Source of the DNA: Asterochloris sp. CNOR1
Taxonomy: Eukaryota > Chlorophyta > Trebouxiophyceae > Trebouxiales > Trebouxiaceae
Direction: 5' to 3'
Assembly: GCA_963969365.1 (NCBI GenBank)
Contig: OZ017759.1
Location: forward strand, 1,550,001-1,614,000
DNA: 64,000 bases
Shown: in pieces, positions 1-64,000 of the stretch
Numbering within the stretch: position 1 is the first letter of the stretch
How the letters are laid out: every line of letters begins with the position of its first letter
Translations under genes and position numbers: made by a program
Notes under the pieces: generated by a model
Database searches by the model: none
What the model was told of the DNA's origin: nothing
Seen by the model: only the letters and a program-made list of their open reading frames with translations

Positions 1-3000
1 AGCACACAGCGCATCGACAGGCGGATGGTCACGAGCGCGCGGCATGCAGGCTCTGACCGCAGCAAGCATGCTGATGTGCCTCAGACTGCCTGCGCCTTCA
101 CACCCCTGAGATCTCCTCTGGGGCAGGGCAGGCACAGGCAATTTAGTACTAGCCACAACCCACCTGAGAATGCTGAGAGCAGCGAGGGCGGCTGGATGAG
201 CCTCTCCAGAGCTGAGCCTCCACCCCTACTGTTGCTCGGAGGCTGCTGCAGACCAGGAGCCTCCAGCAGCTGCAATGCCTGAGCACTGACCCAATGCTGG
301 CAGCCAGACACGTCCGGTCTGGCATTAGGGTCTGCTGCTGGCTGCATCGCAGCTGCAGCGTCAAGCATCAACTGGAGCCGCCGTGCATGTCTCCTGCCCC
401 TGCGACTGGCTATGACATGCTTATGATTGTCAGGCTCCTCCTGTTGCTGCTGTGCCTGGTGCTCTCTGCCTGTGCCCTGCCCCTGCCTGTCAGGCTGCGC
501 TTGTCTCTCTCTGCCGGTGCCTGGCTCACTCTCCCTTACATACTCCCCTTGCTGCTGCTCCTGGCTGTACGAGCCCTGAGTCGCAGGTTCCAGCCGATCT
601 GGCCTGCATTTCTGAGCCTCCTGCCGTCCCTGCCTGCCAGCAGGCATGTCTTGTTGCTGCAGATGCCCGTCAAAGTCCGGGCCTGGCATGGCAGGCGCTG
701 CTACAGCAGGCTCGGCCGGCTGACTCAGGCTGACTAGGGGGGCCAGCTCTGGAGGAGCTGCTTGCTGCGCTGCCTCCATGCGCTGGCCCATGTCAGCCCC
801 TGATGGCTGTCTGATGTGATCCTCGTCAGGCCTACACAGCACAGGTGAGTAGCAAGGTTGCAAGTGAACTTTGGTTACAGCAAGTGCAGGGCAAGGGTCT
901 GGCAGCTGCAGGTGCCAAATGTTTGGACAGCGCTGACAGGAGACTAGGCTGGGTGCCAGGACCACACATGAGGTAACCACACATCTGCACTTCCTGCTGG
1001 TGCTGCAGGCTGACGTTTCCAGCTTTAGGGCAGCATATTGATCATGTGCAGGCTCAAGGTGCGCCTGTAGGGCACAGTGACCACACAGCAAGACAGGAGG
1101 CACAGGCTGCAGCTCAACGCCCAGACAGATTGGCTGCACACGTCACACCTGTGAGGCACAGCGCCCACATAGTAAGGACTAGGGTCCAGGACGTCAAGTT
1201 CATGTCCCCGCTGGGAAGGCTGCGCAGCCTCAAAGACAGGTGCCAGCAGCGGCGCCTGACCTGAATAATGGTGCCCCTGGAGCAGGAACGTGCGCATGCT
1301 CAGTGTCACGGGTGTCCAACCTGGACAGCACCTGGCTCATCATGTGCAAGGGCAGCTATTGGCCAGCATTCGGGCAGACCCTTTCCAGGCAAGACCCGGG
1401 GCTCAGCATGTGGCATGGCTGGCAGGTTGCAATAACATGGAAAATGGCACAGAGTCACGCTAAGGTTATCCTGGCCCTGAGGCCAAGGCGATGTGCACAG
1501 AGGCATGCAACTCATCAGCACCTTGACTGCGTCCGGCCCTGCAGGGCTGGTGCACAGAGCTGTGCATCCCATCAGCAGGACCGACAACAAGTAACTGCAG
1601 ACTGATGTACACATTGAGCACACAGCCAGGCCTGGAGTAAAAAGACAGAGCCAACCACCTGCTTGCACCTGGGGCTGCACTGTACACAAAGGTAGGCTGC
1701 TGCCAACCGCAAGTCCAGACAGCTGCCTGCATCTGGCGCTATAGGTTGATGGGATGCAGCGCTTGGCACCCTATCAGCAAAGCCCCGGCATTATGTGCCA
1801 CAGGCTGTCGTATGCACCAAGCACATTGCCAGGCGTCCCATCAGCACCTTGAAACCACCTGCCTGCACCTGACACTGTGGGCCCAGTTGAAAGCAGTTGT
1901 GCAAAAGCCCCAGGCATCGCATTAGCCCATGCCAAACACCTGCCTGCAGTTGTCGTTGCAAGCTAGCCACAAAGCTGTTGTGCAGGCCAGCGTGTTGCGA
2001 CTCCTGCTGCAGCAGCTGGCGAGCACGTCCCCCTTGGCTGCCCTTGTGCTGAGGTTGAGTAAAATCAAGTGCGGGCTTCCTGTAGGAGCATAGACACTTC
2101 AAGTCAGCCCAGAGAGCGAGACTGCAGCTGGAGTGCCTGGTCACCATGCTCATGTTTGCAGGACCAATCAATGACTAGCTTGCTGAAGCCACAGAGGATC
2201 TTGAGCCAGCCTAGAACTGGCTCACCCCTGAAAGCCAGCATGCTGGGTTGTCCCGTCTCACTTTCAAATGGGCTCCTTTTGCATGATGCAATGCTGGTGC
2301 ATATGCACAAGACCATCTCTGATGTAGTACATTGCACCGTTGAGGTGTGGCCATTGGTGGATGGTCAGCAGAACCAGTCTGCTGCCAGCTGATGGCATGC
2401 TGCATGCAAGCAAAACCATGCCAGCCACCACATCTTCACCTACTTCAGGTCCGGCTTCTGGTGAGTGCGCATCAAGACCACGCTCTTTCCAGCAGATAGA
2501 ATGCCTGGGACCAGGGCGCCCAGGAAGCTGGGGCATGCAGGAGAGCCATCGCGCTTGAGGCGCACTCTGTAGGCATCGTACCAGAACTGCGGGGACTCCA
2601 CTGAGATGGATTTGTCTGCATGACAGGAGGCCACACTGTGCTTGTACTACAGACGTCAGTCAGCTGTTGTTGGGGCTGAGCTAGCTGCATCATGATGCCG
2701 GCAGAACCTCTCAGACAGCCCCTCAGCGCCTCTGAAACACACAAATGATTGCCAGACGACAGCGCTGCAAGCAAGCAACATGGCGTGGCTGACACATGCA
2801 GCCTGCCTTTGGCGAGTGCAAAGCTTTGAGCCCCATGATGGCTGGAAGGGGTGGGCTCACCTTCAGCAATGAAGAAGTCGTCTGCGGGGTCGTCAATCAG
2901 GCCGCTGTACAGCCAGGCATGGAGCTGGTGCATGAAGGGCTTGCTGGCGCAGCACAGCAGCCTCAGCAGCAGCGCTGTTTCCTGGCTACCTGCAGCCATC

Positions 3001-6000
3001 TACCCAAAGGCATTGGCAGGGGTCCAATAGCTATATAGCGCAATCCAGCATGCTTGGAGGGGCTAAGAGCCACATCAAACCAACCTGCTCTATTTGGAGC
3101 AGAGCAGCACCCGATCAACCAGTAATACTGATGTGGCCAGGCCCACTCCTTCTGCATCTGTCTCCCGCCGCTAGTTCCCACCGACGGGCAGTACTGTGTC
3201 CTGGCAGCAAGCAACACAATTGCAGACACTCTCCTTGGCGGCCTCCCTGCGTGCTGCAGATGCGCTGCAGCTGGTCCACTGCATATTCAGGCCAGCAAGA
3301 GAACCGGCAACCATAAGCAACCCACCCTGGCAGCTTCCCTGCATGCTTTAGGTCTGCGTCAGCTCGTCCAAACTTGGTTAAGCAAGGCAAGCAGCACACT
3401 TCAAGGGAAACCCGTGGCGGCACCCCTGCATGCTGTTGGTGTGGGGCAACCTAGATCAGCCTTATCTTTTTGAGCATAGCAAAGAAGAACAGCATTCATT
3501 TCTCTGGCTTGTGCTGCTCCTCAATGTAATGTGCATTGCTTTCAGGGCACCTACCCTGGCGGCTGCCCTGCATGCTGTAGGTGTGCAGCAGCTGGTGCAG
3601 CGTGCTCAGGATGTGGGCGCACAGCTCCGCCGCACTGCAGGGCTGCTGCTGTGAAGGGTCCTGTGGCTGCGGCATCTTCATGCTGGTCACGATGTGGTTC
3701 ATCAGGACGATGCGCCTCATGGGCCCCTGCAAGCAGCCATGCAGGCCTTTCAAGGGCGCTTTGCTGGCAGTGCAGGGCTTTGAGTCAAACTCCTGTTTCA
3801 GCAGGACACTGCGCCTCAAAAGCCCCTACACACAGGTACAGCACGTCCTCAAGTGTCCTGGTGGCAGGGGCAGGGCTAGGCTTGCCAGTAGATCAGGACA
3901 ATGTGTCTCACACAGCTGTGCCAGCCGAGCCGCAAGATTCTGCTATGGGGCCTCCCTAGGTGACAATGTGTGCTTCATCCAGACGTCTTGCCTCATGGCC
4001 GCTGTCATGCAGGAGCGCAGGTCTCCTCAAGGCCTACCTCTAGTGCCATGTGAAGATGAGCCCAACAGGGTCTTTCAAAGCATGGACAGTGGTCAGCAGT
4101 GTAGTACCACAGTGCAGGCTGAACGCAGATTGCACAGCAGTCCTGGACTGGGTAGGATCAAAGCTTCACCTGAAGCTGCTGCTCCAGCTGCAGTAATGTG
4201 GCCGGCCCACTGCCTTCTTGCATAAGTCCACCTGCTCCTGCCACTTCCATCTCCAGCAGGACCAGCTGTAGGTAAGAGCAGTCTGGGTTAGGTACAGGCA
4301 TCTGAAACCTCAAGAGCTCTCAACAGCTCAAACAGCTGCGTGGTGCAACACGTCACCTTCAATACCAAACAGGCTACAAGCTTTTGACAAGTTGACGTCA
4401 GACAACGGCTCCAAATTTGGCTGGGCTGCCAGCCTCACAAGCTGTTAGGGCGCTGTGAGTAGGGCTCACCTGCTTGCACACAGCCTGCACATGCTGGTCC
4501 AGCCCAGCTGCCAGGGCTGCCAGTGTGGGCGTGGCCTCTGGGCGCTTGCTTGAGCCAGTTGTATGGCGCTGGGCAGTGGCCGAGGTGGCCAGCGTGCCTA
4601 GGATGCGCCGAATAAAGCGCTGCACCCTGCACATGCACATCAGTCACGGCCAAGACTGAGCAGCTGAGCACCTGTATAGATGGCTGAGGTGCCCATGCGC
4701 CTTGCAAAGGCCTGCACCCTGCACCGGCAGACTCTGCCCATGCCACACAGCAGGGCCCATGCAGTGGGGCAGATTGATCAGTCTGAGGTGACCAGTGTGC
4801 CCAGGCTGCACTGCACAAAGCTCTGCACCCTGCACGTGCAGGTGATGCAAGGCACCTAGTGTAGGGTGCAAGCAAAACTGCTGTCTACCATGCAGATGCC
4901 TGCTGTGTCAACAAATGTCAGAAGGCTGGCACCACAGGAGTGCTCACAGACGTGGGGCAGCAAGTTTGCCTGCTAAATGATGATTGCTGCCCCTGGACTG
5001 CACAGTGACAGTCAGCAGAGCACTCACTTCAAGCCAAGATGTGCAACTCTGTGTGGCAGGCAGCAAGGCGTCCCAGCAGGCATTGCAGAGTGCACAGGAG
5101 TGGACCATTCACAGGCAGTCCCAGGGCCTCACCTGTGCATGTCAGTGCCACACCGAGCAAAGCGCCCCAGAAGGCGGTGCAGGCTCCCCAGCGAGAGATG
5201 CTCCACGTGCACCTCACCAGCCACACGATAGCTGTTGGAGGCGCTGTGCAGTGCAAAGCCCTGCCCTGGCTGCGTGCAGCCTCGCAGCATGCGCAGCACC
5301 TGCAGCAAACTGGCCTCTCAGTCCTTCTGGGCATGTGCAGATGGGGACAATATGCCTTCATGCTGAGGGGTCAAGCCTGATTGTGCTGACGATCGTCACG
5401 CACCTGACCTGCAGCCAGTGAGATGCCCTCATGGCTGACATGTGCCCTGCCACTTCACATGATCTGAGCGCTGCCAGACCGCAACCACTGGCTGGCAGAG
5501 CAGAACTCTTGGCAGCTGCTGAATTGCTGCTTTCCCTCCAGCTCAGGAGCAGCGCAGCAGAACCTGCAATGCCGGCGTTGAGCACCAGCTCCAGTAGATA
5601 TATCTGAGCTGGGTTTGCGTGACGCATCAGCATCTTGCATTGCCTGTCAGCCCTCAAGAAGAGTACGGAGATAATGCACACTACTGGGCAGCTGTGGCCT
5701 TGCCTGCGTGACCAGCTCTGTCTCTGTACTGGGCAGCACATCCACCAGAGCTTTGTAGCGTGGGTCAGGCCTCAGACTGGGCTGTTGCAACAGCTGCTCT
5801 AAGACGCAGCCAGGATGGCGCTGCCTCTGCAGCACAGGCTGGAGAGCTGCCTGCAGCCTGTTGCGTGCCTCTGCTGCTGCCAGCTGCCTTGCTGCAGACC
5901 CTTGATCCTCAGCTGTAGGCTCTGCAGCAAGAGTTCCTTGAAACATCTGAATCAGTATAGGAAGCAGAGGTGGATGTTCTTGAGGCAGAGCTCTGTTGTA

Positions 6001-8397: not shown

Positions 8398-11300
8398 ATG
8401 GCCAAGGATGCCGGATTCAATGCAATTGAGAATGCCAAGGAAGGTGCTGCAGCCAATGGCAGTGCAGGGGAGGAGCAACACACCACAAGAGAAAAGCTGA
8501 GCACCAAATTCAAGAAGCTCAAGAAAAAGCTTAGCCACAACACCAGCACCAGCAAGCATGTCCAGGCAGACAGTGCTGCAGAGGAGAAGGTAAGTGCCTC
8601 TGAGACTCTATTGACCAGCCTGTAGCAGCCTCGCTGTGCCGCAGTCAAGGTGCCAGCAGCTTATGTCACCAAGGATGTTCGGATCATGCAGGGCGTTGAG
8701 CACGGTAGCGGGCCTTCTCATACCTCCTCTGCTGCACTGCGGGAGCACAGCAAACAGCTGCAGCACCTGCGTGGCCAGGACCTCTTCATTCAGGTGGGGC
8801 CCCCTGACTTTCTGCACAGCAGTTGGAATTCAAGATTGCATCATCAGCAGCACAAGAGATAGGTTCCCTGCTTACACGCCTTTGCCATTAGCAATGCAAA
8901 CAGGCACAAGCTTGCACGCTCTGCACTGCAGATAGCTCTCTTGACAGGTTCAAGCTGAGCACTCACAGGTTGTTACCTGCTCAAACCACCCTCACTGCAG
9001 GTGGTCAGTGCCAGGGGCCTTCCTGCAGCTGACAGGAATGGGCTGAGCGACCCTTTCTGTAAGGTCAGATGCGGCACCATCAGGCACCAGACCAAGGTCA
9101 TACCCAAGACCCTGGCGCCCAAGTGAGTCACTGTGTGTGCAGCACGAGAGGCCTTCCAGTAAGTTTCAGAGGCCCCTGCAGAGACCGGCAGCCTTGGTGC
9201 CAACAAAGTCTGTTGATCTTCGGCTAAACTGAGGCAGTGTCGGCTTGTCGCTGATTGAGAGGCAACTACACTGGAGGGATGTCAACCTGCAAAGCCCTTC
9301 ACCCTAAGATGTAATTCAGGCAGCCGGCTTGCACTGAGTCAGCTCAGTGTTTGCAAATGGAGCGTCTGTAACAGTTTGCACCAGCAGTTCAATGCTTGCA
9401 GGTGAAGGGAGGTAGTTGGTGTTTGAGCATGGCGCCTTGCTCTGAGGCGGCACCATGCCTGCAAAGTAAGGGATCATAGATATCAAAGAGGAGTCTCATG
9501 CATGCAGTTGGAAGAGGGTATTTGTTGCTGCAGCTGATGCCTTGCTCTGAGGCAGCACCATGCGTGCAGGTGAAGGGAGACATTCTTCTTGAACCTGGGC
9601 CAGCTTGCACTCAGGCAGCTATGTGCCTGCAGTTCGTGCTGCCCCTTGCACTGAGACAGCAATGTGCCTGAGACCCTAGGCCTGCGACCTGGGGTCATGC
9701 TACCGTTGTTAACTGCGCTACCACCATGTTGCAGGTGGAGAGGGATCTTCTGTTCTGCATCCTCAGCCAGTCGTGCAGCCAGCTTGCACACAGGCAGTTA
9801 CAGGCTTTCTGGGCATGCTGGCTCTTACACTGAGTGTGTCTGCAGATTGATCTGTCTCATTCCCGGGGCAGCTGTGCTGGCGGCTTGCATCAAGGCAGCT
9901 AAGGCCAGGTTATGCTGCGTTTTGCACTGTGCCAGTAGGGTGCCTGCAGGTAAAGGAGGACTTGCTTTCAACCTGGACACTCTGCTGCCATTGATTTGTG
10001 CTGTTGCTCTGCTTGCAGGTGGAGTGAGACCTTCTGCCTGGACATGGAGGATGAGGATCTTACTGCTCTTAGCGCAGATCCCAAACTGTACTTTGAGGTG
10101 CGTATGCAGTGGGCTGCAGCAGGGTCGGCTGCTTGATAGCAGCTGTCTGGTGCCTGCTGGCAGCTCATAGCTGGCCCATCCCACAACGCCAAATGCTGCA
10201 TTTCCTCCTTTTTGAGGTTGAGCAGGCCCCTGCGGGCAAGAGCTGAAGTCCTGCTGGGCTTGCCTGCATGCCAGCTGCCTGCCAGCATGTTTGTCCCCCT
10301 GCCTGCTCTGCAAGCCACTGCTGTCCCCACTGTCAGCCTCATTGACCGGCAGTCACAAGGGGTCTTTGCTGAGCATGGCACCTCGTGCTTGCCAGCCCAC
10401 TGCAGGTGTGGAGTGCCATGCCTGACACCAACACTGAAGATGCAGAGGGCTGCCTGCAGGTCTGGGACCATGACCACATCCTCAGAAACGACTTCCTGGG
10501 ACAGGTGAGCCATGAGCTGCCTGCAGGCCTCGTTCACTTACAAGCGCACGGTGCCCATCAGCATTGACTGGCCCTTTCCTACCGCTACATACATACATCC
10601 AGGCGCGCATGTCTGCGCCCACTGCTCAGTGCACAGCGCCTGCCAGTCACAGTCTGTGAAGGCATGTGTGCCGGCTGCATGGCAGCGCTGCACCTGTGGA
10701 CCTGCTGCCAGCCCACTTTGCCACACAGCAGCTGCCAACCCATTCAGGTTTGTCCCACACTGGACCTCGTCAGCCTGGTGCTGGAAGCACCTTACAGCCG
10801 TATTCAGGCCATTCAGTGACAGGCTGCGCTCGAAAGCTGCCCTGCTGTCAGCCTGGGCAACACACCTCACAGCAGCTTCAGGGCCATTTGGCGCTGCCCA
10901 CTGCTGCCAGTTGTCTGCAGTGTCAGGCATCTCACAGCAGCCGCCAGGCCATCTAGCATTGCTCAACACTGGCAGCTTGTCCTGCAGGCAGAGGTGGACC
11001 TCACAAAGCAGCAGCTGGAGGGGCCACCCATATGGCTGCAGCTGGCCGGCAATGCAGGCAAGGGGGATGACGGTGACGACTGGGGAGAGCTGGAGGTGGC
11101 GCTGTGGCTGGGACCAAAAGGCCATGTGCTGGGGCGGATCTCCGAGGATCAGTCTAGTGAGCCTGATGGGTTGCCAGTGCTAATGGAGAATGCACTGGCA
11201 AGCAATCCAGTTCGAGCTTGTGGAGCCCTGTGGTGTCTCATGTCGGGGAACTTCAGATCTCGGGCGTTGCAGCTGAGCCCAAAAGAACCCATACTGGGTG

Positions 11301-14300
11301 AGATTGGCATGGGGCTGTCAGGTGTGCAGGGTCTTCTCTGTCCCATGTCGGAGCTGAGCTGAGAGTTACACTAAGCCTGGGTCTTGCCAGCAATGTGTTG
11401 GGGCATCTTGTCACAAACCTGACAGGTATCAATGCTTTAGCCGGTCAGCAGGATGCTGACTGCAAAGGCTTGTCGCCTGGTGCTTGTGTGACAAGGAGGT
11501 GGCATAGTGGCTGAGCCGCCTGAGCCATGTGCTGGGCAGCATCTCTATGGACACGGAGCTTGCTGGGCTGCTGTGGTGATTGTGCAAGCAAGAAAAAGAT
11601 GATGTGCAGAAAACCTTTGAGCCGTCAGTTGCAGCCTCCTCAGATGTTGGCAGCTTCATGCAGTGTGCCGCCAGGAACTTGTGCCGTGGCTGAGACTTGA
11701 GGGCCCTATGCATAGGCGCATTGTTGAGTCAGTAATTCTGGATGGCTCAGGCAGCGGCTGCTCCATAGCCATTGCCAAAAAGCAGAAAGCAGCAGGCCAG
11801 CTCATCTGTCTGCCACCTCTGCAGGGCGCCGACTCACTGTCTTTTGTGTCTGCAGGGCTCAGCATGGACTCTCAGCACCGGGCAAAGGCGCAGCTGAGCA
11901 GTCTAGTGAACCCTCCAGGCCTGAACAAGAGCCTGCCCCTGGTGGTGCACACTGGGAGCTACACCTTGTATGAGGAGCCCTGCATTGCCTACCTCAACCT
12001 CCATGTTGCCAAGGTCAGCTGGTGGTCAAGTCCTGCCATATTCTTTGGGCAGGTCCTCCTGGTGCTTCATTTCATGGCAGACTGACAAGTGCCTGGCAGG
12101 CTGCAAGTCTGCCGCAACACCAAGACAGGGTCTTAGCAAGGCTGGAATGCATCTCAACAGCTGCACCTGGCAGGCAATTTGATTGAGCGATTGGCAGGTT
12201 CAGGGCGACCAAAGCTTACTGCATGAAAGCGAGCATGGTACTGGCGCAGCACAGGCTTGTGCCTGTGCAGGCTGGACTTGCATGGCCCGTGAGAGGTGTC
12301 TTCATCTGCATCAATCTGCAGTATGCCTGCCCAGGCAGGCATGCTGCCCTGCCTGCCATTGACACTCCGCATATGACAGTTGCCTCAAACCAGCATCAAT
12401 ACTGGGTCACTCTGCAGCTGCTAAGCAAGTCCATGCGGGTCCCCTTTCCTCTGAGATTGACACTGACCTGCACGTCAGTGTTTAGGCCAAGGGCATCCGT
12501 GGCGGCGCCGGCGCCAGCAAAACCGTGTCCCAAGAGCAGCATGAGGTGCAGGGCAGCGAAGGCAGCACGAGCAGCACAGGCAGCAGCCGCCGCAAGGGGC
12601 CCAAAGCCAGCGAGTCCAGAAACCCCAAAAAGGCGCGGAAGATGCGCCGCAGCGAGACCAGCATGCCGAGGGATACCGAGGTTCACGAAACCCTCAGCGC
12701 TGACAGCTACGACAGGTTCCAGGCACAGGAGGGCGGGGACAGCCACAGGTGGGCTGGAGAGTAAATCAAAGCATCAGGAACGAGGTTTGGGCTGGAGGGA
12801 GAGAGGCATTTATCCAAGGCAAAGCTGGCGTGGGATGAGAGAGCCAGGGCCTCCTGCTCTGAAAGTCTACTCACAGGCTGTTCAGCCTGTCAGGGTCCCC
12901 ATGGGAGGAGTTAACTGTGGTGGCTGACCCCTTTGGTGTGCTGGCTGCTGTCTGACAGAGGGCTGAAGGCTGCCACAGCGACGCTGGCTGCCGTCTTGGC
13001 TGCTTTCAAGCAGGCTGGGACAGCCCAGAAAGCCGACTTCAGAGCCTTTGAGCGTGCTCAGGCGCCCCATCCCCTGCTCTGCAGTCCCAAGAAGGACCTA
13101 ACAGACAGGGTGCGTCATCACATTTTGAGAAAAGCGTGGCAGCTCTGGGCATCCATGCCTTCTTGCTCTTTGCCAGTGGTGACAAGCACAGCATGTACCC
13201 TGCTTAGCACTCCCAAGGAAGAGTCTGCGATGTGACTCTCAATAGTTGGCTTCTGCAGTCCCAAGAAGGGAGACTCTGAGGGGGGTTCCATTGAGGACTG
13301 GGCAGACGACGATGATGCCCACGGTGCGAGTGCTGAGGACACCAGCATGCCTCCCCAGCAGGGGAAGGATGATGAAGAGAACTGGAGCGACGAGGAGGGA
13401 GAGACCCTCGCTTCGGCAGGCATCTCCAATGTCTGGGTCTGGCTGAAGGTGGGGGGTCAGCAGCTTGCTGCTCTTCTGAAGTTTGTGGTACCATGTCACT
13501 GTCATCAGCAAAGGCTGGGGCAGGGCAGGAGGGGGGTTTTAATCGATGCTCCTGTGGCAAGGGTAGGGGAAGCCACACCTCGGCAGGCCCCATTCAATTC
13601 TGGGTCTGGCGGATGGTGGGCGATCAGCTGCTGAGCTGTATGCTGTGAGGAGCAAGGGGCATGTCTTCAGGGCAAGTGCATACCGCCATGCCCTTGCAGT
13701 ACCATACTACTTGGGTGCTTGGCGCACAGGTACCTACATGTTGTGTATATCAGGCAACCTGCAGGATGGGCCCTGCAGATTGATTGGGCCGGAGGTCCCA
13801 TGTCTTGCATCCATTGGGCAACCCCCTCATCTCTGAGCACTTCCCCCGGTCTTGCGAGGTTTCTAGTCCTACCTGCCTGCTTGCTGAGTCTATTTTGCAG
13901 GCCCCATAGGTCTGCCTGAGCTCTCAGTCCCCTTCTTCATGGTTGCTAGAATTCAGTCCGTTGCTTCAACAAACCCAGTCCTTGGCGCCTGCAGGTCTTC
14001 ACAGACCATCAAGTTTATGTGTGGCCTGTCATAGTGGCCGCCAGAGCACCAGAGAGCCACCTGGAAACAGAGCCTGGCCTTTGCAGTGGCCGCTAGCCGC
14101 CATAAAGGCCACCTTCATCCAGTCTTTAGTTCGCTGCTGCAGGTTTTCTCGCTGCCTGCCTTCAGAAAAGTTTGAACAGCGATAGACCCACCATTTCACA
14201 GTACGCTCATGCAGGCCCCTGCAAGTCTTTCCGTGGCTGCCCAGCCTCATCTTTTGACTGCAGGCTGCACTGAGCACTGTACAGCCACCTGAACCAGGGC

Positions 14301-17300
14301 TTGGCATTTGCAATGGCCAGATGACATCTAAGCAAGCTACGCCTGTCTCAGACCCCTCTCACAGGGTTTCTTCCCCTGCTTGCCCTTATAGGTCTCCCAT
14401 AGCTCAGCTGCTGTGCACGACCCCACCACACCATCCACACCATGATTGTGTGCGCCTGCAGGTGTCCATGGGCTCTCAGTCCCATGTTTCGCGGCTGCGG
14501 CGGGCCACGGAGCACCGCACAGCCACCTGGAACCAGAACTTTGCCTTTGCCATGGCAGTCCCACTGCGCAACCGGGTGATCAAGCTGGAGATCTGGGGGA
14601 CGTACGATCGCAAGCGCCAGGGGAAGATCCTGGCTCATGCCTACATCCCCTTGTTTAGTGCAATGAACTCTGGGCAGGACCCGCAAGGTCAGTCGACTGG
14701 ATGCCAGCCCCCAGTGCTGGGGACGTTGGCTGCCATGTTGTCATGACCTCAGGCAAGCGCCTGTCAGGGCGCAGCTGGGGCCTTTGAGCGTCATTGACCC
14801 AGGCAAGGGGTCGTGTGGGGGCACATCAGTCAAGCACCAAAGGAGAAACTCTCACGGCGCATGCACACATCCCTCCTTGTGCGCTACTGCCTAAGCTGCG
14901 TTGTCACTTACAAGGCAAATCTGAGCAGTGTGTACCTTGCGGCCTGCAGCTGATGTGTCTGTGTTTGGCCTCCAGAGGTCAACAAGCAGTCCCCCTGGCG
15001 CCAATGGTCTGTTGTCAAGCTCTCCAGCATGTTCTGCAGACGGTACGGTGGAGTCCCGGCACCCCGAGGACAGCAAATGGTTTCGCCTGCACGTGGAGAA
15101 CAAGCTGGCTGCCGATGCTGGGGTGATCAAGCTGGCTGTGGCTGCCATTGATGCCGATACCAGGCGGGCTGTATACAAGCAGCCGCTGGCCTCGCTGGAT
15201 TCTGGTCAAGGTGGGGCTCTGCTGGGTCACAGTGTGAGCACCTGCTCCCAAGCAGCACATCATGACAAGCAGCTTGTAAAACAGACCAATAGCATCCTCT
15301 TCTGATCTGGCGCTGCCTGTCAGCTGCGCTTGGCAGCAGAAGCCCCCAGGTCTGCAGCTTCCTACCTGGGTGGCTGCTTGCCAGGTTGATCACAGGACTG
15401 TGGAGCCATCTTCTTTCAGCAATGACGCATGGTGCTCTTTCTTTGGGTGGGCTGCTAGTCATTCCATGCCCACCCCGCTGCTTACTCGCAGCTAGGTTCG
15501 TGCATGCAGAAGTACACTGCAGGTACACCTGATGCTTCCCAGCTCAGATGCTGTGTGGAGCATGGCCCCCTGCTGCTAGCAGCCATGGCGTCTTTAAGCA
15601 TCACGTTCGGCACAGTGAGACAGCTGCCCCTCGCAGATGCGCTCATTCCCCAGCAGCAGGCATAGGCCAACGCCCTGCAAGCAGCTCTGACGCCAGTGCG
15701 CTGCCTGCCTGCAGATGCTAGTCTCTATGAGCTCATGCCCCCTATGTCACCAGCCATGTTGCCTCCAGCACCCTGCCAGCTGCATCTACACAAGCAAGCC
15801 ACCTGCCTGTCGCCCGCAGGTGCGGTCCACTGCAGGCATACACCCTCTCTGCCACCAGCAGCTGTCACAGCATCCCCACCAGCCTGCCCACCAGTGCATC
15901 CCTCCAACACCAGGCACTCCTGGGTGCTGTCTGCAGATGGTGCGCCCTATGAGCGGATGCCCTCTGCCACCAGCAGCGGCCGCGGCGGGTCCAAGAGCCA
16001 GAGTGGGGACCTGCTGCGTCTGCCCAGCGGCAACAGCCAGAGCGGCCCTCCCGGGCTGGACCTGTCTCACTCAGGATCCCTGGCCCAGGAGCTGCCTGTG
16101 CAGCGATCACCCAGCAACACGGTCGATGAGGGAGACATCGTCAGGCAGGCTCTGGAGGGCACCCCTGTACACAAGTAAGTGGGTACCCCCAGTCTGTGGG
16201 GTGCTCAGAGGCAACCTGCGTCCAGTCCACATCTGGGTGCCACATTGCTGCAGCTGACTGTCAAGAACCCCCAGTGCTCATGTACAAATGCACTTTGCCA
16301 GGCTGCTCAGCGCCTAAGGCAGGGCACAGTGCGGCACATGCCTTGCTGATCAGTTGTTGGTCCCATTGGGGTGCCCGAGACAGCTCCAGATTCTCCATTT
16401 TGTCATTTGCAGGACAGCATGCTGCGCTCAGCAGAACTGCATGGCACACTTGTTGCTGTTGGCAACTGTTCCCTGCAAGACAGCTGGCAACAGCATGCTT
16501 GTATGCCGTAGGTACAGACTACGCCTCTGGAGGGGCCCTTATGCAGTGTGGCCCTGTTTGGGCTGATGGTCCTGCTGCTGAGGATGGTTGAGCTTGCCCT
16601 CAGAGAGCTCCAAACTGCGTTCACGCTGCTGTTGGCCAAGGGCTCGCAAGCCAGTGCAATCGGTCACGCAGAGTAAACTGTCCTGTGCAGCCAGATCCCC
16701 CTGTCAAGTGCTCTTCTCCAGAGGCATCCATCTACTCACGCCTGGCGGTACTGCCGTGCAGGGCAACTAGCCTGCGCAATCTCACTGCCCTGGTCAAATT
16801 CACCAGCAAGGAGCTGCCCACCCCGGGATCGATGTGGGCACGCCTGCAGCACCGCCTCAACAGATTCCAGCTGCTGGGGGCGTCAGAGAAGGCCACCAAG
16901 GTGGCCAGCAAGGTTCCTCAGCGGCCCATCGGCATCCTCAAGCTCATCCTGCATGGCCTGGAGCTTGAGGAGTCAGACAACCCGTTTGTCATCATCAAGT
17001 GAGAGCTGCTGGGACCCTTCTGCACAGTTGCATGCTGATGACACATGGCGCAGTGATCATGTTGAAGCCCAAAAGCTTGCACAAGAGCCATCAATGGGCT
17101 TTCATGCAGCAGGCTGGTGTGGCTGCTTGATCATCACCAGTCCTGGCTCATTCCCCGGTATGCAGCCCTGCTGTTGCTTGCATTCATTCCCTTGCCCCCG
17201 CCTTTGCATTGCAGGTGTGGGCCTCATTGGGGCAAAACTGACATCAAGTTCAGCTCAAAGTCCGCAGTGTATGAGTGGGAGGTGAGTAACCTTGGTGTGC

Positions 17301-40008: not shown

Positions 40009-40077
40009 GCTCAAAGCAACGTTCAAAATTATTTTGGGAAGCACTTCTGAGAGCTAGGTCACTGCCACTGGCATCAG

Positions 40078-45743: not shown

Positions 45744-48700
45744 ATGCACAGCCAATTTGCCACAGTCTCCCCCTCACAGTCCCCGCGAGTGCCAAGAATT
45801 ATCTTGCCAATGCCTGCGCAAGGTGAGCTGTGCGTTTTTCGCACATAGAGGCTGGCCTTTCATGGCACTGACAAGTTTGCCTGACCCTGCAGAGGCTGGA
45901 GCGAGCATGGCTGTAGCAAGCATGCTTCACTTTGGGACTGTGGCCGCGTGGCTGCGCAAGAGAGGTACTGGCCCTGCTATGTGTGCAGCTCCTGCACTTC
46001 AGACTGTGTGCGTCTGGTGTCTGAAGGCGATCTTCCAAGCCTGTACATTATGGCAATGCAGGCAAGGCAGTCAGACCATACCTGAACCGCAGAGAGCGCC
46101 AGCACCTAAAGGAGTGCTTTGACATGATAGATACAGATGGAAGCGGCGCTGTGGACGCCTTAGAGCTGAGGGCGGTCTTCACGGTCGGGACCGCTGTCTC
46201 TGTGAACCGTCTGGGACTGCACCTTTCCTCTCAGCCCCTCCGCTGCTGATTAATGACATTGCTGACACCAGCCAGCCATTGTCTGCCTTCTGGCGGTTTT
46301 GTGCTGGCCCAAGAGCTGTACGCAGTCTCCACACACTCCCCCTGGCACCAAGGTGCTAGTGACAGGCATGCCTATGGAAGGCAGGCATCTCTTGGAGGCT
46401 GCACAAGTGCCAGCTTGGCTATTGTGCATGCTGGTGCTGCCCGTAGTGTACTGGGACGGCACTAGCTTGCTGCCAACCTGCTGACCTGTGTGAAGGAGAG
46501 TTGCACCAGTCTGGAGAGGGCTATGGAGTACACGTGGCGCCCTGCTGCAGGCTTTGGGCGATAGGGTGACGTTAGAGGACGTTCAGAGCATGTTGGCAGA
46601 GGTGGATCGAGACAGCTCAGGTGTGCGGGCATGCTGCACCTGCTTGATTGCACCACCCGGGGCCATAGCCTGCAGAGCTTGCCAGCAGAGTGAAGTTTCG
46701 TGACAGCTAAGGTGCACAGACTTGCTGAGCCTGCATGTTTGCATCACTAGACACATCATGTTCCGAGCATGTTGGCAGGGGTGGTTCGCAGCAGCTCAAA
46801 GTGTGTACACTTGCTGCACCTCTCCAGCTGTATCATCGATAGGAGTTAGGTGCAGAGCATGGTGGCAGAGGTGGACCGCAACGGCATGCATGCTGGATGC
46901 TGCACCAGCATTGATGTCACTACCAGTTGCATTGCCAGGGCAACATGAGAGTCAGATGCATGGGGCCAGTGATCTGGCCACATGTTAAAAGCGCTGCATG
47001 ACGTAGCTTCAGCATGACATATGCCTCCTCAGGGCTCAACAACCAGTTGCAGCGCTGTATGCAGCACCTACATGCATGTCATTGGCTTCAGATCCTGTGT
47101 CTCTGCCTAAGAAGTCTCCTGCAGGCAGCATGACCCCTTCAGCATGTTGAACTTGATCTGGCACTGCCCTGTAGGCAGCATCTCCTTTGCAGAGTTTGTG
47201 GAGATCATGACCCTGGGCAGGGCTGATGAACAGGAGACAGCTGATGATCACAGCCGCATCAAGACAGGGCGGGCCCCTGGCAGGGCCCCCAATGCCTTCA
47301 ACATCAGCCTGATGGCGTCAGCTTACAGGTGGGGCACGGTGGTACATGGCACGATGGGCGGGCCCCTGGCAGAGGCCCCTATGCCTTCAGCATCAGCTTG
47401 ATGGCGTCTGCTCTCACACGAGACCATGATTGAAAGCTGTCCCTGCTGCCACCAGCTGCCAGGGAAGTGTTGTGGTCTGGTCAGCTTGGTGGCGTCAGCA
47501 CGAAACCATAGATGCATGCTTGCTGCTAGGCAAGGCCAAGAGAGGTGGGGCATGGCACACGTGGAGGAGTGGTGATAGCATGTGCAGTGCCTGTGGCCAG
47601 CCAAACAGGTGCCTCAGCACTGGCTGCCTCACCGTTGTGAAAGCCGGTGTGCACCAGGGAGGTGCTGGTGTGTATGCGCACCTGTGAGCAGCACTTGCAG
47701 TGGGATGTGACTCCGTCAACAGGATGTCTGGAATGCTACCAGGCACTTCCAGAGCAACAGCAGTGATGGCTCGATTGCCTGCAGGCGCAAGAAGATCATG
47801 GAGGGAGTGTTCAAGGACTCAGGCAACTGGCGCGCCCGTTTTGTGCGCATGCACGAGGAGGAACAGCAGCAGAGGGCGGTGGAGAGCAAGCTGGCTCGCA
47901 TGAGGTGGAGCGTGTTGATTTGATTACATGCGTTCTTTGCGGCGGCTCCTTGGCTTGCTAGTTGAGCCCAAATGGTTCTGCCCGTGCTCAACAAATTCTG
48001 GCACCGGCAGCTTTCCCAGGTTGAGCACTTCCACCTGCGAGGGAGGCGGTCATGTCAAAATTGAGGCAGCCGCAGTGCTCAGCAAAAGCTTGTGTTTTGG
48101 CCTCTCTATGGAATTTCAGCCTGCTGCTGCCTGTGTGCTGCAGGCAGGCTGCGCTGGACTCTCAGAAGTCTCTGGCCACAAGCCTGTCCGTGCCCAGTGC
48201 TGGACCCAGCGCAGCTGGTGGCTTGCTGCTACAGGTGAGCAGCTGTACTGCCGCAAGCTCACTACCTGAGCAGCTAGTGCAAGCAAATGCTTCTTTGATG
48301 GCGGTCAGATGGGTGTATCACTAAGCAGCACAGCCGATGGTCTGCCCCTGCAGCGTAGTCTCTGTTGCATGTATCACCTGCGGGCAAGCTGTTCCAACGA
48401 AGCATGGCAAGACAGTTTGCATGCACCTGCTATGCAGACGATTGCCATTGCCCGCGCAGCCTCTGGCGTGCCGGCCCTCACAAATCCTGCCGGCGCAGAC
48501 CAGACAGCAACTGCCCTGCCACTGGACAGCAGGTCAGTGCGCTTGGCTTTGCATCCCTTTTGTCTGTGTTCAGAGACATGAGCTGTGCGCCTGACGTGGC
48601 AGGGTTGCGGAGGCAAGTGCTGCCGCAGCAGCGTCTGGGAGCTATTCAAGCAGGCCTGATGCTGCAGCTGCATGCCCATAGCCTCAGATAGCAAGCACAC

Positions 48701-51700: not shown

Positions 51701-54700
51701 AAGTCTGAAATGAGTTGCTGCCTGCAGGGTGCAAAGGGTTGTTTGACCATTTCCAGCAAGCCCACCTGACTGCCGCCAGCCAGGTGCCCTCGTGTGTTGC
51801 TTCAGATGTGCTGCCGCTGCAGGGCTCACCATGGAATGTCCAACCAGTCGCCGCGAGCACACAAGGCGGCCACCAGCCCCGTGCCCACCCTGAGCCTAGA
51901 GGAAGCTGAGGGGACGTCCAGGGGGCTGGACGGGGCTGCCCGACTGCACTGGCACCACACAGCCAGAGGCAGCGCCTTTGGGAAGGTGCAGCGCCCCGCC
52001 CACCTCGCACCGTCCAGCCTCCTGCAGCCCAGGATGCACTTCAGGCATACCTCAGGCGCCATGTCGTCGAGACCTGCCAGCCAGGTGGGTGCAGTGGCTG
52101 CTCACAGCTGCCCCCTGTGGGTGTCTTTCAGGCTTGCTACTGACCCCATGTTGATCATGGTCTGCCAACAAAGTGAGTCAAGCACCAGGAAACGATCGTG
52201 CAGAAGTGTGATGCGGTGCAGCAAGCCTGTGGTGACAGGATGTTGCCAGAGCAAGTGGTGAGGCAGGTGCAGCAGCGAGCCAGACATGGCTCTGGCGCCA
52301 TGTCTTCAAGGCCTTCAGCGAGGTGGACGCAGTGCCAAGGAACTAATGGTACATGTAAGATGCTGTGCAGCATGTCTGTCATGACAGGCGTCAAGGCAGA
52401 TGCAACAGGCAGCATGTCAATTGGGGTGATGCTGATAGGAGAGGCCTTTGGCACCAGGTCAGTACGGAGTGGCTGCACCAGAAATTCAGCTTTGCAGCTA
52501 CCTCAGATGGTGATGTGCAACAAAGCCTCCAGCCCGCTAGCGCATTTTCACCAGCCAGGTGGGCAAAGCACCAGGGGTACAGTACGTCGATGTCAGACTG
52601 CAGCACCTCCCAGCTGCACAGCCATGCAGCTGCTGCTGTGTGAACTGCCTGCCTGAAGCCAGGCAGTGGCGTCCTGAGCTTTGTGGAGGCTTCACAGGTC
52701 ACACCGTGATCCTGAATCATCCCAGGTCATTCCCTGAGTGAAGTCAGCTCACCTGTGATGGCAGCACCCATGGCAGGCAACCCAAGGCAAGCTGCACTGC
52801 TTCGGCAGCTCGCAGCCCATCCAGACCTGGAAGGCACACAAGAGCCTGATGCTGTTGCATGGGCACTGCAGGATGACTTCCAAGGGGACATGAGTGAAGC
52901 TTGGATCAGCCAGACACGGCCTCTGGGGCAGTCCATGCTGCAGCAGCTGCGCCAGGACTCCCTGGCCGCCACTGAGCTGTTCAATGCCAAGGTGGGTGAT
53001 CCTGAATGCAGCTCAGCGGCAGGATTCCCCACCATGAAACCAGGGGTAGGTGGGCGCTCCTCCGTGCAGGCTGGCTGTGTATGGGCAGCAGGATGTCTCA
53101 CTGCAGCTGCTGTGGGATTCTGTGGCTGCCACCATGCTGTTCAATGGCAAGGTGGGCACCATGGGCTGGCACTGGGCGATGGCCACACTGTGCAGCCTGG
53201 CCGGTGGATGCTCCCCTGTGCAGCATGGTGGTACATCGGTCTTAGCTGGGGCCTTACAGTGGGGACCATGGGTGTCACCTGCTGAGACTCCCTGGGTGCC
53301 AGCATGCTGTCCAAGGGCCGCATGAGTGCTGTCGGCTGTTGCTAGCTGAAGGACCACACTGTGCCACCTGGCTATAGCACAGCAGTTGGGTGCTCCGCTG
53401 TGGAGCCTGGCTCGTCACGGGCAGCAGGGTGCAGCCCCCTCCACTGTGCCGCCCGCCAGGACTCCATGGCTGGCCAGCCTGCTGTGCAATGGCAAGGTGG
53501 GTGCTCCACAATGCTGCCTGGCCATTGCAGGGCAGCAGGGTGCGCCCAAGCTGCCACCATGCTGTGCAAGGGTTGGATGGGTGGCTCATGTTTTGTTGCT
53601 GGGCAACCTGCCAGGGCCGGTCATTGTCATCATGCTGTTCAGTGACAAGACCTGGCTGTGTGAAGGCTGGGAGGGTGCTCCACTCACATCATGATGTTGA
53701 AGGCTAGGCTGATGCACGGTCGTTGGTGCTGTGCTGCAGGTTCAGGCATTTGAGCTTACTGCACCCATGGGTTGCCCTGCAGGCTGACCCTGCCGCTGTG
53801 ACTACCAGCATGCAGCAGGCTACTGGCAGCACAACCGCTCAGCTGGTTGCCAGCGGCACGACCAGGCAGCATACCTCTGGGGCAAGGCAGTCCCCATCTG
53901 CCACCGGCGCTGCAGATCGGTCGCAGGTTGTCACACCTCGGACAACTGCCCGCAGCCGACGCAAAGCTCATGTGGAGGAGCTGAGCCAAAGGGTGCATGC
54001 CAAGCCAGTTGCCCTGCGGCAACAGATCAGGCTGCAGGCCCAGCAGCAGGTGAGCAGATCTCTGCGATGTCCGACTGCATGCCGCATGCCAACAGGCACA
54101 GCAGCAGGTGAGCCCAAGCTGTTGCATTCAGGCCATGCTGAATGCTATGGCTGCCTGTTGTCTTTGTTGAGTTTGAGGTTCTTTGCACTGTGCAGGTAAG
54201 AGCTAGCGAAGCCTGGATGGCTAGCCTAGCAACGAATGCACTGGTCTGAAAAATCGATGAGGACAAAGTCTGAGGTTGACCCACAAACTTTACAATTCAA
54301 CATCTCAGCACCTGTTAGTTAGTCGATGTTGACACAACACTGGTGTTGACAACTGGTGGACTTGACAAAGCATTTTGCACTGAAGTCCCTGAACACAGAT
54401 GATGGGCATCGCAGCATGAAATCAATGAAAGGCAGGCCAATCTTTGCAATACTAGATGGATGAGGTTGAACCATGAATGGGGGGCCTTGTACATCCGCCT
54501 CAGCTAATCTTTGCCTGGACAGACCATCTCCCATGGGCAACATCCCACAAAAATTTGCCTGCAGCAACACCTGGGGACTGGGTTCATGAACAAGTCACAC
54601 AGGTTCAGCAAAGGGAGCCTGCAGCAGCACAGGAGGCAACCAAAGGGGCCAGCACAGGTAGCACACCTGTGAACATGTCAAGAGCTGTTCGCCATGCAGG

Positions 54701-61762: not shown

Positions 61763-64000
61763 ATGAGTCGCGGCAAGGCATCTTACGCATTGCTTGCCAG
61801 GTTGCTGCAGCGTCCATGGGCCAATGTGAGCAGCAAAGGAGCGGCCACACTGGCCAAGGCCTCCACTCCTCTGCAGCAGCAGGTGGGATCGGCAGATGGT
61901 TGTCAGCTGGCAGCAGCAATCTTGTACAGAGCAGCCTGTCATGACAGCAGCAGTCCTGCATATACTTGCATTACTGCCTGCTGCTCTTTTGGAAGCCTGT
62001 GCGCATGTGAGACCCATGTGCAAAGGGCACATACCAGCACTTTGCTGGTGATGACGTGGCAGCTCATATCTGGACTGCTGCCTTCCCTACTGGCCTTCCC
62101 CATCTGCAGTACATTGATCGAGAGGACAAATTTGGCGCCCACAATTATGCCCCCATCCCGGTGGTGATCAAGCGCGCAGAGGGCGTCCATGTGTGGGATG
62201 TGGACAACCGCAGATACTTTGACTTCCTCAGCGCCTACTCAGCTGTCAACCAGGGGCACAACCACCCTCGGGTGAGCACAAGCCAGGCACCCAGGCTGAG
62301 CTTGGCCAGAGCAGCGGTAGCGGGTGTGACAGGCAGCATCAGCCTCTCTGTTGTCTACCTGGCTTTGTAGTCCCTGAGCTGTTGTGCGGCCCTCCCCAGC
62401 TGACACCTCCGCTGGTCAGAGGCACAACCACCCTCTGATGAGAAGGTTGCTGGACAGGGCACTGCGCTGTTGCATTGTCATAGCGGCGAGGTGCATCTGG
62501 CGGCAGTCCTATGAGCTCTGGCATGCAGAGGCACCATGCTAAGGTTCCATTTACTGGCCTGCGATCTTCTCGCTGCCATGTTTGGACGTGACTGCTTGCT
62601 GCCTCCGCAAGTGGCCAGAGCTCAGGTGAACGAGGCGCACATCCTGTCTGTGGCCATCCTGTCAGCTGGTGCCTGCAGCCCGTTCACCTGCCGTTCCCCG
62701 CCTCTGAGCTCTTGGAGGCAAGTGCTGCACATCTGGCCTTCACATGGCAAGTGCTGCTCATCTGGCCTTTACATGGCCCCTTTGAGACCGTGGGCCTGAC
62801 AAGCGAGCACCGCTGCATAGTGTGGCAGGGGTTGTCCAAGTGCAGCCCAATCTCTGTAAAGTTCCCTCCAGGTCTCTGCCAAGGCTGCCAGCATGCACAG
62901 TAAACCTAATCCATTTCCTGCAGATCACCAAAGCGCTGGTGGATCAGGTGCAGACCCTCGCCCTGACCAGCCGCGCCTTCTTCAACGACGTGCTGGGAGA
63001 GTACGAGGAGTACATCACCCGGCTGTTTGGCTATGACAAGGTGCTGCCCATGAACACAGGGGTGGAGGCTGGCGAGACCGCCTGCAAGCTGGCCAGGTGA
63101 GCTGGCACCTGTGCCGAGGGCCCCTGTCACACACGTGCACCTCTGCCAGCCCTGCAGGTGGGCTCCTGGGCTTGAGACACTGCCTGGAAGGCGGCAGAGG
63201 CTGCTTGGCTGTGAATAGATGCTGCCCATGAACACCAAGGTCAAGGCCGTGGGAGACCACCTGCAAGCCGGCCAGTTGAGCTGGCGTCCATTGTAGGGGG
63301 ACCCTGTCGTGTGCCCGCATCTCGGCCGGCCCTGTAAAAGGAGGCAGGCCCAGACAGTCCTGCCAAAAACAAGGTACTCCCAAGGGTAGCCTCAGCATGA
63401 CCTAGGGTCTGCCCTGCCCACTCCCCTGCTGTGCACCCTGCATCACCAGCATGTAGCTTCAGGGATTCTGGCTCTGTGTTTAGTCCATCTTAAGGTGGCC
63501 CCTGCCTGCAGGCGGTGGGGCTATGACGTCAAGGGTGTGCCCAAGAACGAGGCGGTCATTCTGTTTGCAGAGAACAACTTTTGGGGCAGGACCCTGGCAG
63601 CCATCTCTTCTTCCACAGGTGGGCTGCTGCTGGCTGCTGAATGGTACCTGGCCTGAAGTTGCATGCTTGCCCAGGCAGGACCCCTCTTGAGGGTTGGAAA
63701 GCCTCACGCTACTGGCTGCTCGGCTGGTGCATGAGAAGGCAGCTCTGATGTTGCAGCCTCCAGCCGGGGAGTCTGCCTCATGCTGCGTCTGTGAGGAGCA
63801 GCACGATGTGCACACCCTGCCTGGGTAGGGTGCACATCAGCACCCTGTGATGTGATGTGCAGCCCGGACACCTGTGACCGGTGCTGCAGCTTCAGCGAGC
63901 GGCTGTCGGGCTTCTGGCTCCCCCATGCGTGTACTTGAACTCAGACGCTGGACGCCTGGCAGCAGTGTTCACTGCCCTGCTACAGATCCAGAGAGTTTCG
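61763..64000 (+). CDS. OAT: Ornithine delta-aminotransferase (3' part beyond the right edge)
   Basis: OAT is a pyridoxal-phosphate enzyme that converts ornithine and 2-oxoglutarate to glutamate-5-semialdehyde and glutamate, linking arginine breakdown to proline. Exons 61763-61882, 62110-62271, 62924-63096, 63512-63618 and 63986-64000 (partial) join in phase. Exon 1 is a Ser/Arg/Leu-rich leader ([20 protein letters not shown]) fitting mitochondrial targeting. Family blocks follow: [79 protein letters not shown] (the phosphate-binding GVEAGETA region), and [20 protein letters not shown], where the last four residues come from the exon at the window edge. The catalytic lysine lies outside the window. 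The intron structure shows two junction duplications (see repeats). Confidence 0.95.
62250..62445 (+). repeat. Duplicated HNHPR 5' splice site in OAT
   Basis: The exon end ggggcacaaccaccctcgg|gtgagc (62254-62277) has a copy, gaggcacaaccaccctctgatgaga, at about 62419-62443. In the copy the donor GT has become AT. The spacing is about 166 bp. Confidence 0.65.
62720..62777 (+). repeat. Perfectly tandem 29-bp repeat in an OAT intron
   Basis: aagtgctgcacatctggcct (62720 on) is directly repeated as aagtgctgctcatctggcct (62749 on). The 29-bp units differ at two or three bases, so this is a recent duplication. Confidence 0.8.
63027..63305 (+). repeat. Duplicated [19 protein letters not shown] exon end in OAT
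   Basis: The exon end and intron start (63031-63120) have a decayed copy about 178 bp downstream, at 63208-63300. It includes gctgcccatgaacacc, gagacc(a/g)cctgcaag and ggccag. The donor gccag|gtgagctgg has become gccag|ttgagctgg, so the copy cannot act as a 5' splice site. Similarity extends about 25 bp into the intron. Confidence 0.8.

Follow-up and report, generated by a model that had tools for sequence, protein, structure and literature searches.

Why should an intron carry worn copies of the exon edge beside it? The question is raised by a 64-kb stretch of Asterochloris sp. CNOR1 DNA (contig OZ017759.1, positions 1,550,001 to 1,614,000; the whole stretch is called the window hereafter, and coordinates are counted from its first nucleotide), for which an earlier note had proposed that introns are enlarged by tandem duplication of their own splice junctions, with copies in seven named genes (GCP, MCTP, PARP, cyclin, PPOX, EF-hand, and OAT). 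The base composition of the window is 54–61% G+C, and its splice signals (acceptors mostly TGCAG; donors of the GTGAGC, GTGGGC, and GTAAGG types) together with its gene content suggest intron-rich green algal DNA. The present analysis covers this one window, from sequence only and with exon calls that are partly home-made. Within it, copies of adjacent exon edges do lie in introns, and short tandem duplications that crossed splice junctions are their probable source.

Repeat pairs were collected by comparing the window with itself at a raw score of at least 40. All 33 local pairs are direct, with spacings of 71–504 bp and identities of 72–93%, and no direct pair more than 800 bp apart was found in the 64 kb at that score. 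The only inverted pair at the same threshold (17876–17910 with 52629–52663) is 35 bp long with 86% identity, and three Markov-shuffled windows gave no direct pair at a score of at least 45. Grouped by hand and placed on gene models drawn from homology, reading frame, and eye, the 33 pairs form 22 clusters, of which 18 lie on junctions (11 donors and 7 acceptors), three lie in intron interiors (9392/9498, 9599/9778, and 19568/19680), and one (49094/49218) was assigned to neither group. The side is as the earlier note had claimed, donor copies lying downstream and acceptor copies upstream, and all seven named genes hold copies, the cyclin exon being predicted only. Twelve of the 18 junctions are in recognised genes other than cyclin; at two of these (OAT 63096 and MCTP 14462) the copied exon itself lies under a database match, and the remaining 10 were judged by eye, on reading frame and likeness to the gene family. 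The other six (26119, 34141, 35972, 36655, 52084, and 52991) are on predicted exons. An assembly artefact was considered and rejected because the copies, at 72–93% identity, are too divergent for misassembly, while collapse of near-identical tandem copies in the assembly could conceal young duplicates. No pair among the 33 exceeds 93% identity, and in the eight rows reported by Tandem Repeats Finder the near-identical arrays (93–100%) have short units of 12–29 bp.

The clearest case is OAT, where solved ornithine aminotransferases match the exon to its last residues and the donor GT has become TT in the copy. In the EF-hand gene, a donor edge heads an array of four units with junction spacings of 91, 89, and 87 bp.

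63021..63154, plus strand: OAT source, the donor edge of exon 62924–63096 (76 nt) with 58 nt of intron; PDB match through the exon end, and alignment
63199..63334, plus strand: decayed OAT donor-junction copy inside the 415-nt intron; 136 columns, 75% identity, spacing 178
46581..46657, plus strand: end of EF-hand exon 46551–46620 with its donor, first unit of the four-unit array; Pfam EF-hand match on the preceding exon
46673..46924, plus strand: three intronic copies of this donor (46673–46747, 46760–46821, and 46850–46924); self-comparison
47267..47323, plus strand: donor-side edge of EF-hand exon 47175–47328; self-comparison and gene model
47356..47412, plus strand: intronic copy of the 47328 edge; 89% identity, spacing 89, the alignment ending 5 nt short of the donor

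Two further repeats were noticed. In an OAT intron, 62717–62777 (plus strand) is a near-identical tandem array with a unit of 29 bp, 2.1 copies, and 93% matches, possibly a young local duplication. At 49094–49262 (plus strand), just past the predicted donor 49089, is a direct repeat whose copies both end in GAGGTGAG.

Junctions were also tested as a set. Exons were called by a scorer that combines codon usage with donor and acceptor matrices and was trained on 22 exons of the window; it replaced a first gene finder, which had no exon penalty and over-predicted on both strands. At a score of at least 16 it returned 42 plus-strand and 21 minus-strand candidates, against two or three in Markov-shuffled DNA, and removal of overlaps and of one antisense candidate, with four exons entered by hand, led to 64 exons and 128 junctions. 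The models are supported by reading phase, since of 44 pairs of adjacent exons no more than 1 kb apart, 38 are phase-compatible, where one third would be expected by chance. Each junction was represented by a 90-nt segment (60 nt of exon and 30 nt of intron), with up to 700 nt of the adjoining intron as its alignment target, and 493 random non-exon segments, each tested on both sides, supplied 986 one-sided control tests. At a score of at least 36, 19 of 128 junction segments matched their own intron (13 of 64 donors and 6 of 64 acceptors), against 22 of 986 random tests (9 downstream and 13 upstream); reverse-complement controls gave 0 of 128 and 2 of 986, and mismatched introns about 1 in 3607. 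The counts were 14 of 128 against 9 of 986 at a score of at least 40 and 11 of 128 against 3 of 986 at 50 or more, so that the ratios of junction to random rate are 6.7, 12, and 28 at the three thresholds, with Fisher p values of 1.1e-8, 1.2e-8, and 8.3e-9 that have to be read in the light of tests inside one cluster, and neighbouring tests, not being independent. Inside the spans of recognised genes, 14 of 88 junctions match. Three of the 19 positives (34198, 34273, and 53151) come from called exons that we read manually as copies; when the exon conflicts are resolved manually, the counts become 18 of 124 against 26 of 996 (at least 36; p = 1.7e-7), 14 of 124 against 11 of 996 (at least 40), and 12 of 124 against 5 of 996 (at least 50), with ratios of 5.6, 10, and 19. 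The earlier note had named junction similarity no higher than that of random intronic segments as what would speak against it; at 19 of 128 against 22 of 986 the similarity is higher, and the claim therefore survives this comparison.

The remaining junctions and copies are as follows. At the MCTP 14462 acceptor region, the two upstream copies lie at spacings of 228 and 238 bp, and both copies of the 52991 donor keep GT.

3549..3599, minus strand: donor edge of a GCP exon (3555–3726); Pfam match on the next exon
3233..3443, minus strand: three intronic copies of this GCP donor edge (3412–3443, 3320–3370, and 3233–3278); self-comparison
4582..4637, minus strand: acceptor edge of a GCP exon (4470–4626); exon by eye and scorer
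4785..4840, minus strand: GCP acceptor copy, upstream in the intron, with a weaker second copy at about 4718; self-comparison
13413..13632, plus strand: donor edge (13413–13465) of MCTP exon 13259–13448 and intronic copy (13580–13632)
14044..14556, plus strand: acceptor-side edge (14506–14556) of MCTP C2 exon 14462–14687 and upstream copies (14268–14317 and 14044–14090)
19409..19872, plus strand: donor edge (19409–19448) of MCTP exon 19308–19439 and copy (19833–19872)
19568..19768, plus strand: interior direct repeat, at no junction, in the MCTP intron after 19439
20171..20287, plus strand: acceptor edge (20249–20287) of MCTP exon 20270–20459 and upstream copy (20171–20208)
20404..20682, plus strand: donor edge (20404–20461) of the same exon, 20270–20459, and downstream copy (20625–20682)
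9392..9834, plus strand: direct repeats interior to an MCTP intron (9392–9463 with 9498–9568; 9599–9655 with 9778–9834)
23796..23953, minus strand: donor edge (23919–23953) of PARP exon 23927–24019 and intronic copy (23796–23830), in which GT has become AC; Pfam match on the next exon
26089..26228, minus strand: probable acceptor-side edge (26089–26115) and upstream copy (26202–26228); exon by eye only
34040..34349, plus strand: Q-rich 3' region of cyclin, donor edge (34040–34147, predicted donor after 34141) and copies (34160–34265 and 34311–34349); exon by open reading frame and donor only
35923..36070, minus strand: unrecognised gene, acceptor edge (35923–35983) and upstream copy (36011–36070); exon by open reading frame only
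36620..36733, minus strand: second acceptor edge of the unrecognised minus-strand gene (36620–36662, predicted exon from 36655) and upstream copy (36691–36733); exon start by eye
41122..41427, minus strand: acceptor edge (41122–41167) of PPOX exon 40989–41161 and upstream copies (41225–41258 and 41383–41427)
52042..52334, plus strand: unrecognised gene, predicted donor edge (52042–52096, donor after 52084) and copy (52281–52334)
52938..53517, plus strand: unrecognised gene, donor edge (52938–53012, predicted donor after 52991) and copies (53101–53156 and 53454–53517)

Three of these places deserve a remark of their own. The stretch 9123–10405 (plus strand) is probably an MCTP intron, some 1.3 kb long, with related TGCAGGTGAAGGGA-like units in its interior; its donor lay outside the junction test, and its flanking exons are predicted and not phase-compatible as called. 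At 33714–34286 (plus strand), the Q- and G-rich coding stretch of cyclin extends into the gene's own duplicated donor segment, where coding and intron repeats merge and exon calling is ambiguous. The unrecognised gene at 35700–37300 (minus strand), which bears two acceptor-side copies, has no Pfam match, the six frames of 35–40 kb matching only at the cyclophilin.

How much is copied varies from junction to junction. Among 29 copies scoring at least 36, the copied junction lies 58–505 bp from the real one, and the exon is recognisably copied over 11–95 nt with no fixed offset. Across 21 families the exon part has a median of 40 nt and the intron part a median of 9 nt, at a mean identity of 0.857. 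Of the one to six copies per junction that had been claimed, multiplicity holds and six does not: the maximum is three intronic copies at a score of at least 30, among 22 junctions. Of the donor copies, 12 of 19 still have GT, and of the acceptor copies 6 of 10 still have AG, or 7 of 10 once a placement is corrected by 7 nt (acceptor 36655 had been entered as 36662 in the copy-level measurements, which shifts that family by 7 nt in them); this retention of splice dinucleotides is about what neutral decay would give. Nor does every intron hold a copy: all three cyclophilin introns tested lack one, as do seven of the eight PPOX introns tested.

What process could leave such copies? The explanation that we favour, and hold to be probable, is that short tandem duplication is general in this DNA, that units crossing a junction are absorbed into introns, and that preservation lies behind most of the junction excess. 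Throughout the non-exon DNA of the window, stretches of roughly 60–240 bp would give rise to adjacent copies in the same orientation. Where a unit spans a junction, splicing would continue at the outer site, which is the upstream one for donors and the downstream one for acceptors, and the mRNA would be unchanged; the new unit would join the intron, the copied site would then decay freely, and repeated rounds would lengthen the intron. Duplications wholly within exons would be purged, and those wholly within introns would occur but fade faster as both copies mutate and gain indels. Junction-adjacent duplicates, on the other hand, would persist visibly, since selection holds the exon copy.

Several observations agree with this scheme. 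Crossing of the junction is seen plainly in OAT, with its 58 nt of intron, and in the first EF-hand array, with 21–30 nt in three copies. Over the first 30 nt on the intron side, identity is 0.655 in matched against 0.614 in mismatched comparisons (p = 2.6e-4), with a weak difference between +30 and +60 (0.601 against 0.574; p = 0.013). That the outer splice site is the one spliced in copy-bearing introns we infer from the sequence, namely from the homology at OAT and from the 38 of 44 phase-compatible pairs. Local repetition is also seen away from junctions: in DNA that lies over 100 nt outside every one of the 64 called exons, local direct 9-mers number 125, 89, and 51 per 100-bp bin (20–299 bp) over a background of 39. 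Inverted 9-mers in the equivalent interior DNA and bins are fewer (68, 57, and 42) and likewise above background, and part of the interior excess is therefore local composition. In the exon-derived part, the identity of exon to copy is 0.771 (n = 33) and exceeds that of copy to copy, 0.701 (n = 13), in line with the exon as preserved reference.

Whether preservation suffices for the prominence of junctions was addressed by simulations of uniformly placed tandem duplications, with constraint on exons and decay in introns. For an old cohort (t = 0.25–0.30, 0.3 indels per substitution), the simulated junction-to-interior ratios are 4–16, 5–21, and 11–96 at the three thresholds, ranges wide enough to take in the observed values (6.7, 12, and 28) as well as those after correction (5.6, 10, and 19). 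The fitting settings also give an identity near 0.85 and short intron-side alignments, near the observed 0.857 and 9 nt. The earlier note had cautioned that its view of junctions might be a matter of ascertainment, and the caution was justified, as old random duplications acquire a junction-centred look in simulation because only the exon copy is preserved. Preservation could thus, in these models, account for the prominence of junctions, only if most of the duplications are old.

A number of points weigh against preservation, or against the way in which we read the copies. A steady-state simulation, with duplications of all ages, gives a ratio of 0.98–1.12 where 6.7 is observed. Plain ascertainment by constraint under steady-state duplication is thus insufficient, though possible for an old cohort, and since the steady state predicts no junction excess, the preservation account needs mostly old duplications. 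Younger cohorts (t = 0.1–0.2, 0.12–0.3 indels per substitution) give only 0.7–1.8 at a score of at least 36. The fitting settings were chosen from a grid; the simulated exon part is longer than observed (median 56–66 against 40 nt); and at an exon rate of 0.25 the fraction reaching a score of 50 is 0.36–0.59, against 14 of 21 observed. Intron-side identity from +10 to +40 is 0.594 against 0.582 (p = 0.20), not above background, and for many families, such as EF-hand 47328, the duplicated unit may end near the junction. The excess of exon-copy over copy-copy identity is inflated, the copies having been selected for exon resemblance. Median intron length is 631 nt with a copy (n = 13, one of these introns, after 53151, starting at a disputed exon) and 352 nt without (n = 25; one-sided p = 0.0008 over the 38 introns measured), and none of 12 introns shorter than 300 nt holds a copy, but longer introns give copies more room, and the length difference is therefore weak evidence for growth. 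As to the exon calls, some interior segments may contain uncalled exons, and the scorer, home-made and trained on the window, conflicts with our manual reading in three places: it calls exons at 34198–34273 and 53070–53151, both of which we read as copies, and starts an exon at the copy's acceptor 36726 rather than at 36655.

The rival that fares best says that duplication or retention is truly biased to exon edges, for example by a break or replication hotspot at transcribed exons, with events inside exons purged and edge-spanning units alone surviving, or by selection that keeps decoy splice sites in introns. The enrichment of junction segments by 6.7- to 28-fold (5.6- to 19-fold corrected), the ratio of about 1.0 expected of uniform steady-state placement, and the mostly exonic similarity (median 40 nt of exon, 9 nt of intron) are what it would lead one to expect. 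Such a bias nevertheless seems rather unlikely, because interior DNA has a local direct k-mer excess as well, comparable enrichment arises from an old cohort under constraint, splice dinucleotides are not specially kept (18 of 29 copies), and the 11–95 nt of exon-side similarity keep no fixed offset. For the larger proposition, that duplication favours exon edges or that copies of these edges are preferentially kept, and that introns in this lineage grow mainly by serial copying of their own junctions, our expectation is low, though it is one we would still entertain. Of the earlier proposal that introns are enlarged by junction duplication, the tandem-type junction duplicates accordingly stand, and the junction as favoured target is, in view of the interior excess and the simulations, a possible reading but the less likely one.

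Double-strand break repair that captures nearby DNA might instead have pasted exon edges into introns. Such capture is local, reaching up to several hundred base pairs, and in the part of PMC2671141 drawn on here it is stated to have copied human intron splice sites; some of the algal pairs, such as 19409/19833, are indeed far apart with short similarity. Captured DNA can sit inverted, as in one case in that same part, whereas the 33 local pairs here are all direct, reverse-complement junction tests gave 0 of 128, and several arrays have regular tandem periods, though in copies of this age the true breakpoints are no longer visible. The lack of inverted local pairs argues against repair capture as the main route, which we regard as improbable.

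Could the copies be functional alternative exons or splice sites? Several keep GT or AG with a local consensus, the scorer in three places counted the side of the copy as exon, and three copies with an intact AG (PPOX 41254, MCTP 15715, and GCP 3825) could add an in-frame, stop-free segment. These three are the only ones of their kind among 33 copies scoring at least 30: in 21 of the 29 whose frame can be tested, use of the copied site would introduce an in-frame stop. The dinucleotide is missing at the aligned place in 11 of the 29 copies scoring at least 36 (10 after correction, two positions being extrapolated). With just 11–95 nt of exon recognisably copied, the copies are partial and therefore not whole duplicated exons. 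A functional role of this kind is very improbable for the copies.

Less credible still is the creation of the introns themselves by tandem duplication of AGGT exon segments, as proposed by Rogers and Hellsten, with the copies as founding remnants. It belongs to the same class of mutation and is published (PMC3443670, in the part used here), but its signature, an intron 3' end resembling the upstream exon end and a 5' end resembling the downstream exon start, scores 9–20 with no outlier in the 38 phase-compatible introns, and the copies, which bring a duplicated donor or acceptor with them, are found in the middle of the intron and away from the opposite splice site. Recurrent CTGCAG acceptors and GC-rich codons, and the Q-rich cyclin case, might be cited for a chance resemblance due to codon bias, low complexity, or the splice consensus; that reading is refuted by mismatched introns at about 1 in 3607, reverse-complement junction tests at 0 of 128 (at least 36), and shuffles at zero (at least 45). 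As no direct repeat joins different genes at a score of at least 40 in the 64-kb window, there is no sign of introner elements within it.

The genes of the window were identified as follows. The gamma-tubulin complex protein (GCP) and PARP genes, both on the minus strand, and the EF-hand gene have Pfam matches. The MCTP-like gene, which occupies roughly 9–22 kb of the plus strand, has C2 domains and a weak C-terminal PRT_C match (E 0.082). The cyclin match (E 1e-4) is just below the Pfam curated cut-off, and subtype "T" is a label of the earlier note only. A cyclophilin gene is the sole Pfam match in six frames of 35–40 kb, the minus-strand PPOX gene was identified by eye, and the ornithine aminotransferase (OAT) gene has database matches that include solved PDB structures. 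The Pfam scan covered the window outside 40.0–45.5 and 55.5–59.0 kb and outside the minus strand of 8–15 kb, and within the first 15 kb its third plus frame was confined to 8–14 kb. A PDB search with one frame of 9.0–24.0 kb and an Rfam search of the window gave no match, and one MCTP exon compared with viral and prokaryote collections, for related algal DNA, found none. In PPOX, the intron between 42587–42723 and 42089–42360 (minus strand) has an apparent GC-AG donor, ATCAG|GCAAGC, that is phase-compatible with the next exon. At 59402–59554 (plus strand) there is a weak match to an APH phosphotransferase-like domain (E 0.026), under the curated cut-off.

If general tandem duplication is the source, its contribution can be estimated. 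With a simulated detection rate of 0.14–0.21 per overlapping duplication in the old cohort and 19 positives among 128 junctions, there would have been about one duplication of 60–240 bp per 200–300 bp of intron; about one-third of intron DNA would derive from such duplications, and more if older events were counted. A conserved exon edge beside a decaying intronic copy is in effect a datable fossil present at many junctions, and wherever a genome has good gene models it allows one to measure how often intron-lengthening duplications arise, how large they are, and how old. The same asymmetry carries a warning, because searches for intron origins may over-represent junctions merely because exons preserve the evidence. 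Long introns without transposons are, in our judgement, poorly explained. In Chlamydomonas and relatives, intron medians are 198–343 bp with no short-intron peak, and the advantage of length was called unknown (Craig et al. 2021, PMC8226300); these are likewise long introns of green algae, and in the portion of that account consulted no duplication mechanism was found.

The comparison with other known systems likewise draws on parts of the papers cited. Novel intron positions in Drosophila attributed to exon duplication had premature stops in 18 of 18 such intron sequences (Lehmann et al. 2010, PMC2891723). They share with the algal copies a tandem duplication, there around proto-splice sites, and the premature stops, but the new positions were deduced from the proto-splice sites, with no surviving similarity. 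The gain of introns from tandemly duplicated AGGT exon segments (Rogers 1989; Hellsten 2011; reviewed in PMC3443670) similarly involves a coding tandem duplication that is tolerated since splicing removes it; it builds new introns from the exon interior, and its signature is missing in all 38 algal introns tested. Vertebrate repair-mediated duplications (Pace et al. 2009, PMC2671141) include intron splice sites, 4 of 824 in Table 2 being partial exon/intron donors, and both these and the short local duplications or doublets (Thomas 2004, cited in PMC2671141) are, like the algal pairs, short, local, and intra-chromosomal. The repair-mediated ones were found as insertions into transposable elements, with pairs less than 50 bp apart removed to exclude tandems, and include a case in opposite orientation, whereas the algal pairs are all direct and form tandem-like serial arrays.

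A close precedent is the potato RdRp gene, in which a tandem duplication crosses an intron-exon (acceptor) boundary and inherits splicing signals (Ma, Lan and Niu 2016, PMC4974935). The likeness lies in a junction-crossing tandem duplication that carries splicing signals with it. In the part of that study used here, the outcome in potato was one more spliced intron together with an inserted stretch of exon, whereas the algal units would be absorbed into the existing intron, where the copied site decays. In a search of an open-access library, subscription papers lying outside it, no account was found of existing introns growing widely via junction-crossing duplication. Such duplication appears to have been published as single or few cases, and what appears to be new is its density, with many cases at donors and acceptors alike in one algal window, and the growth of introns that already exist.

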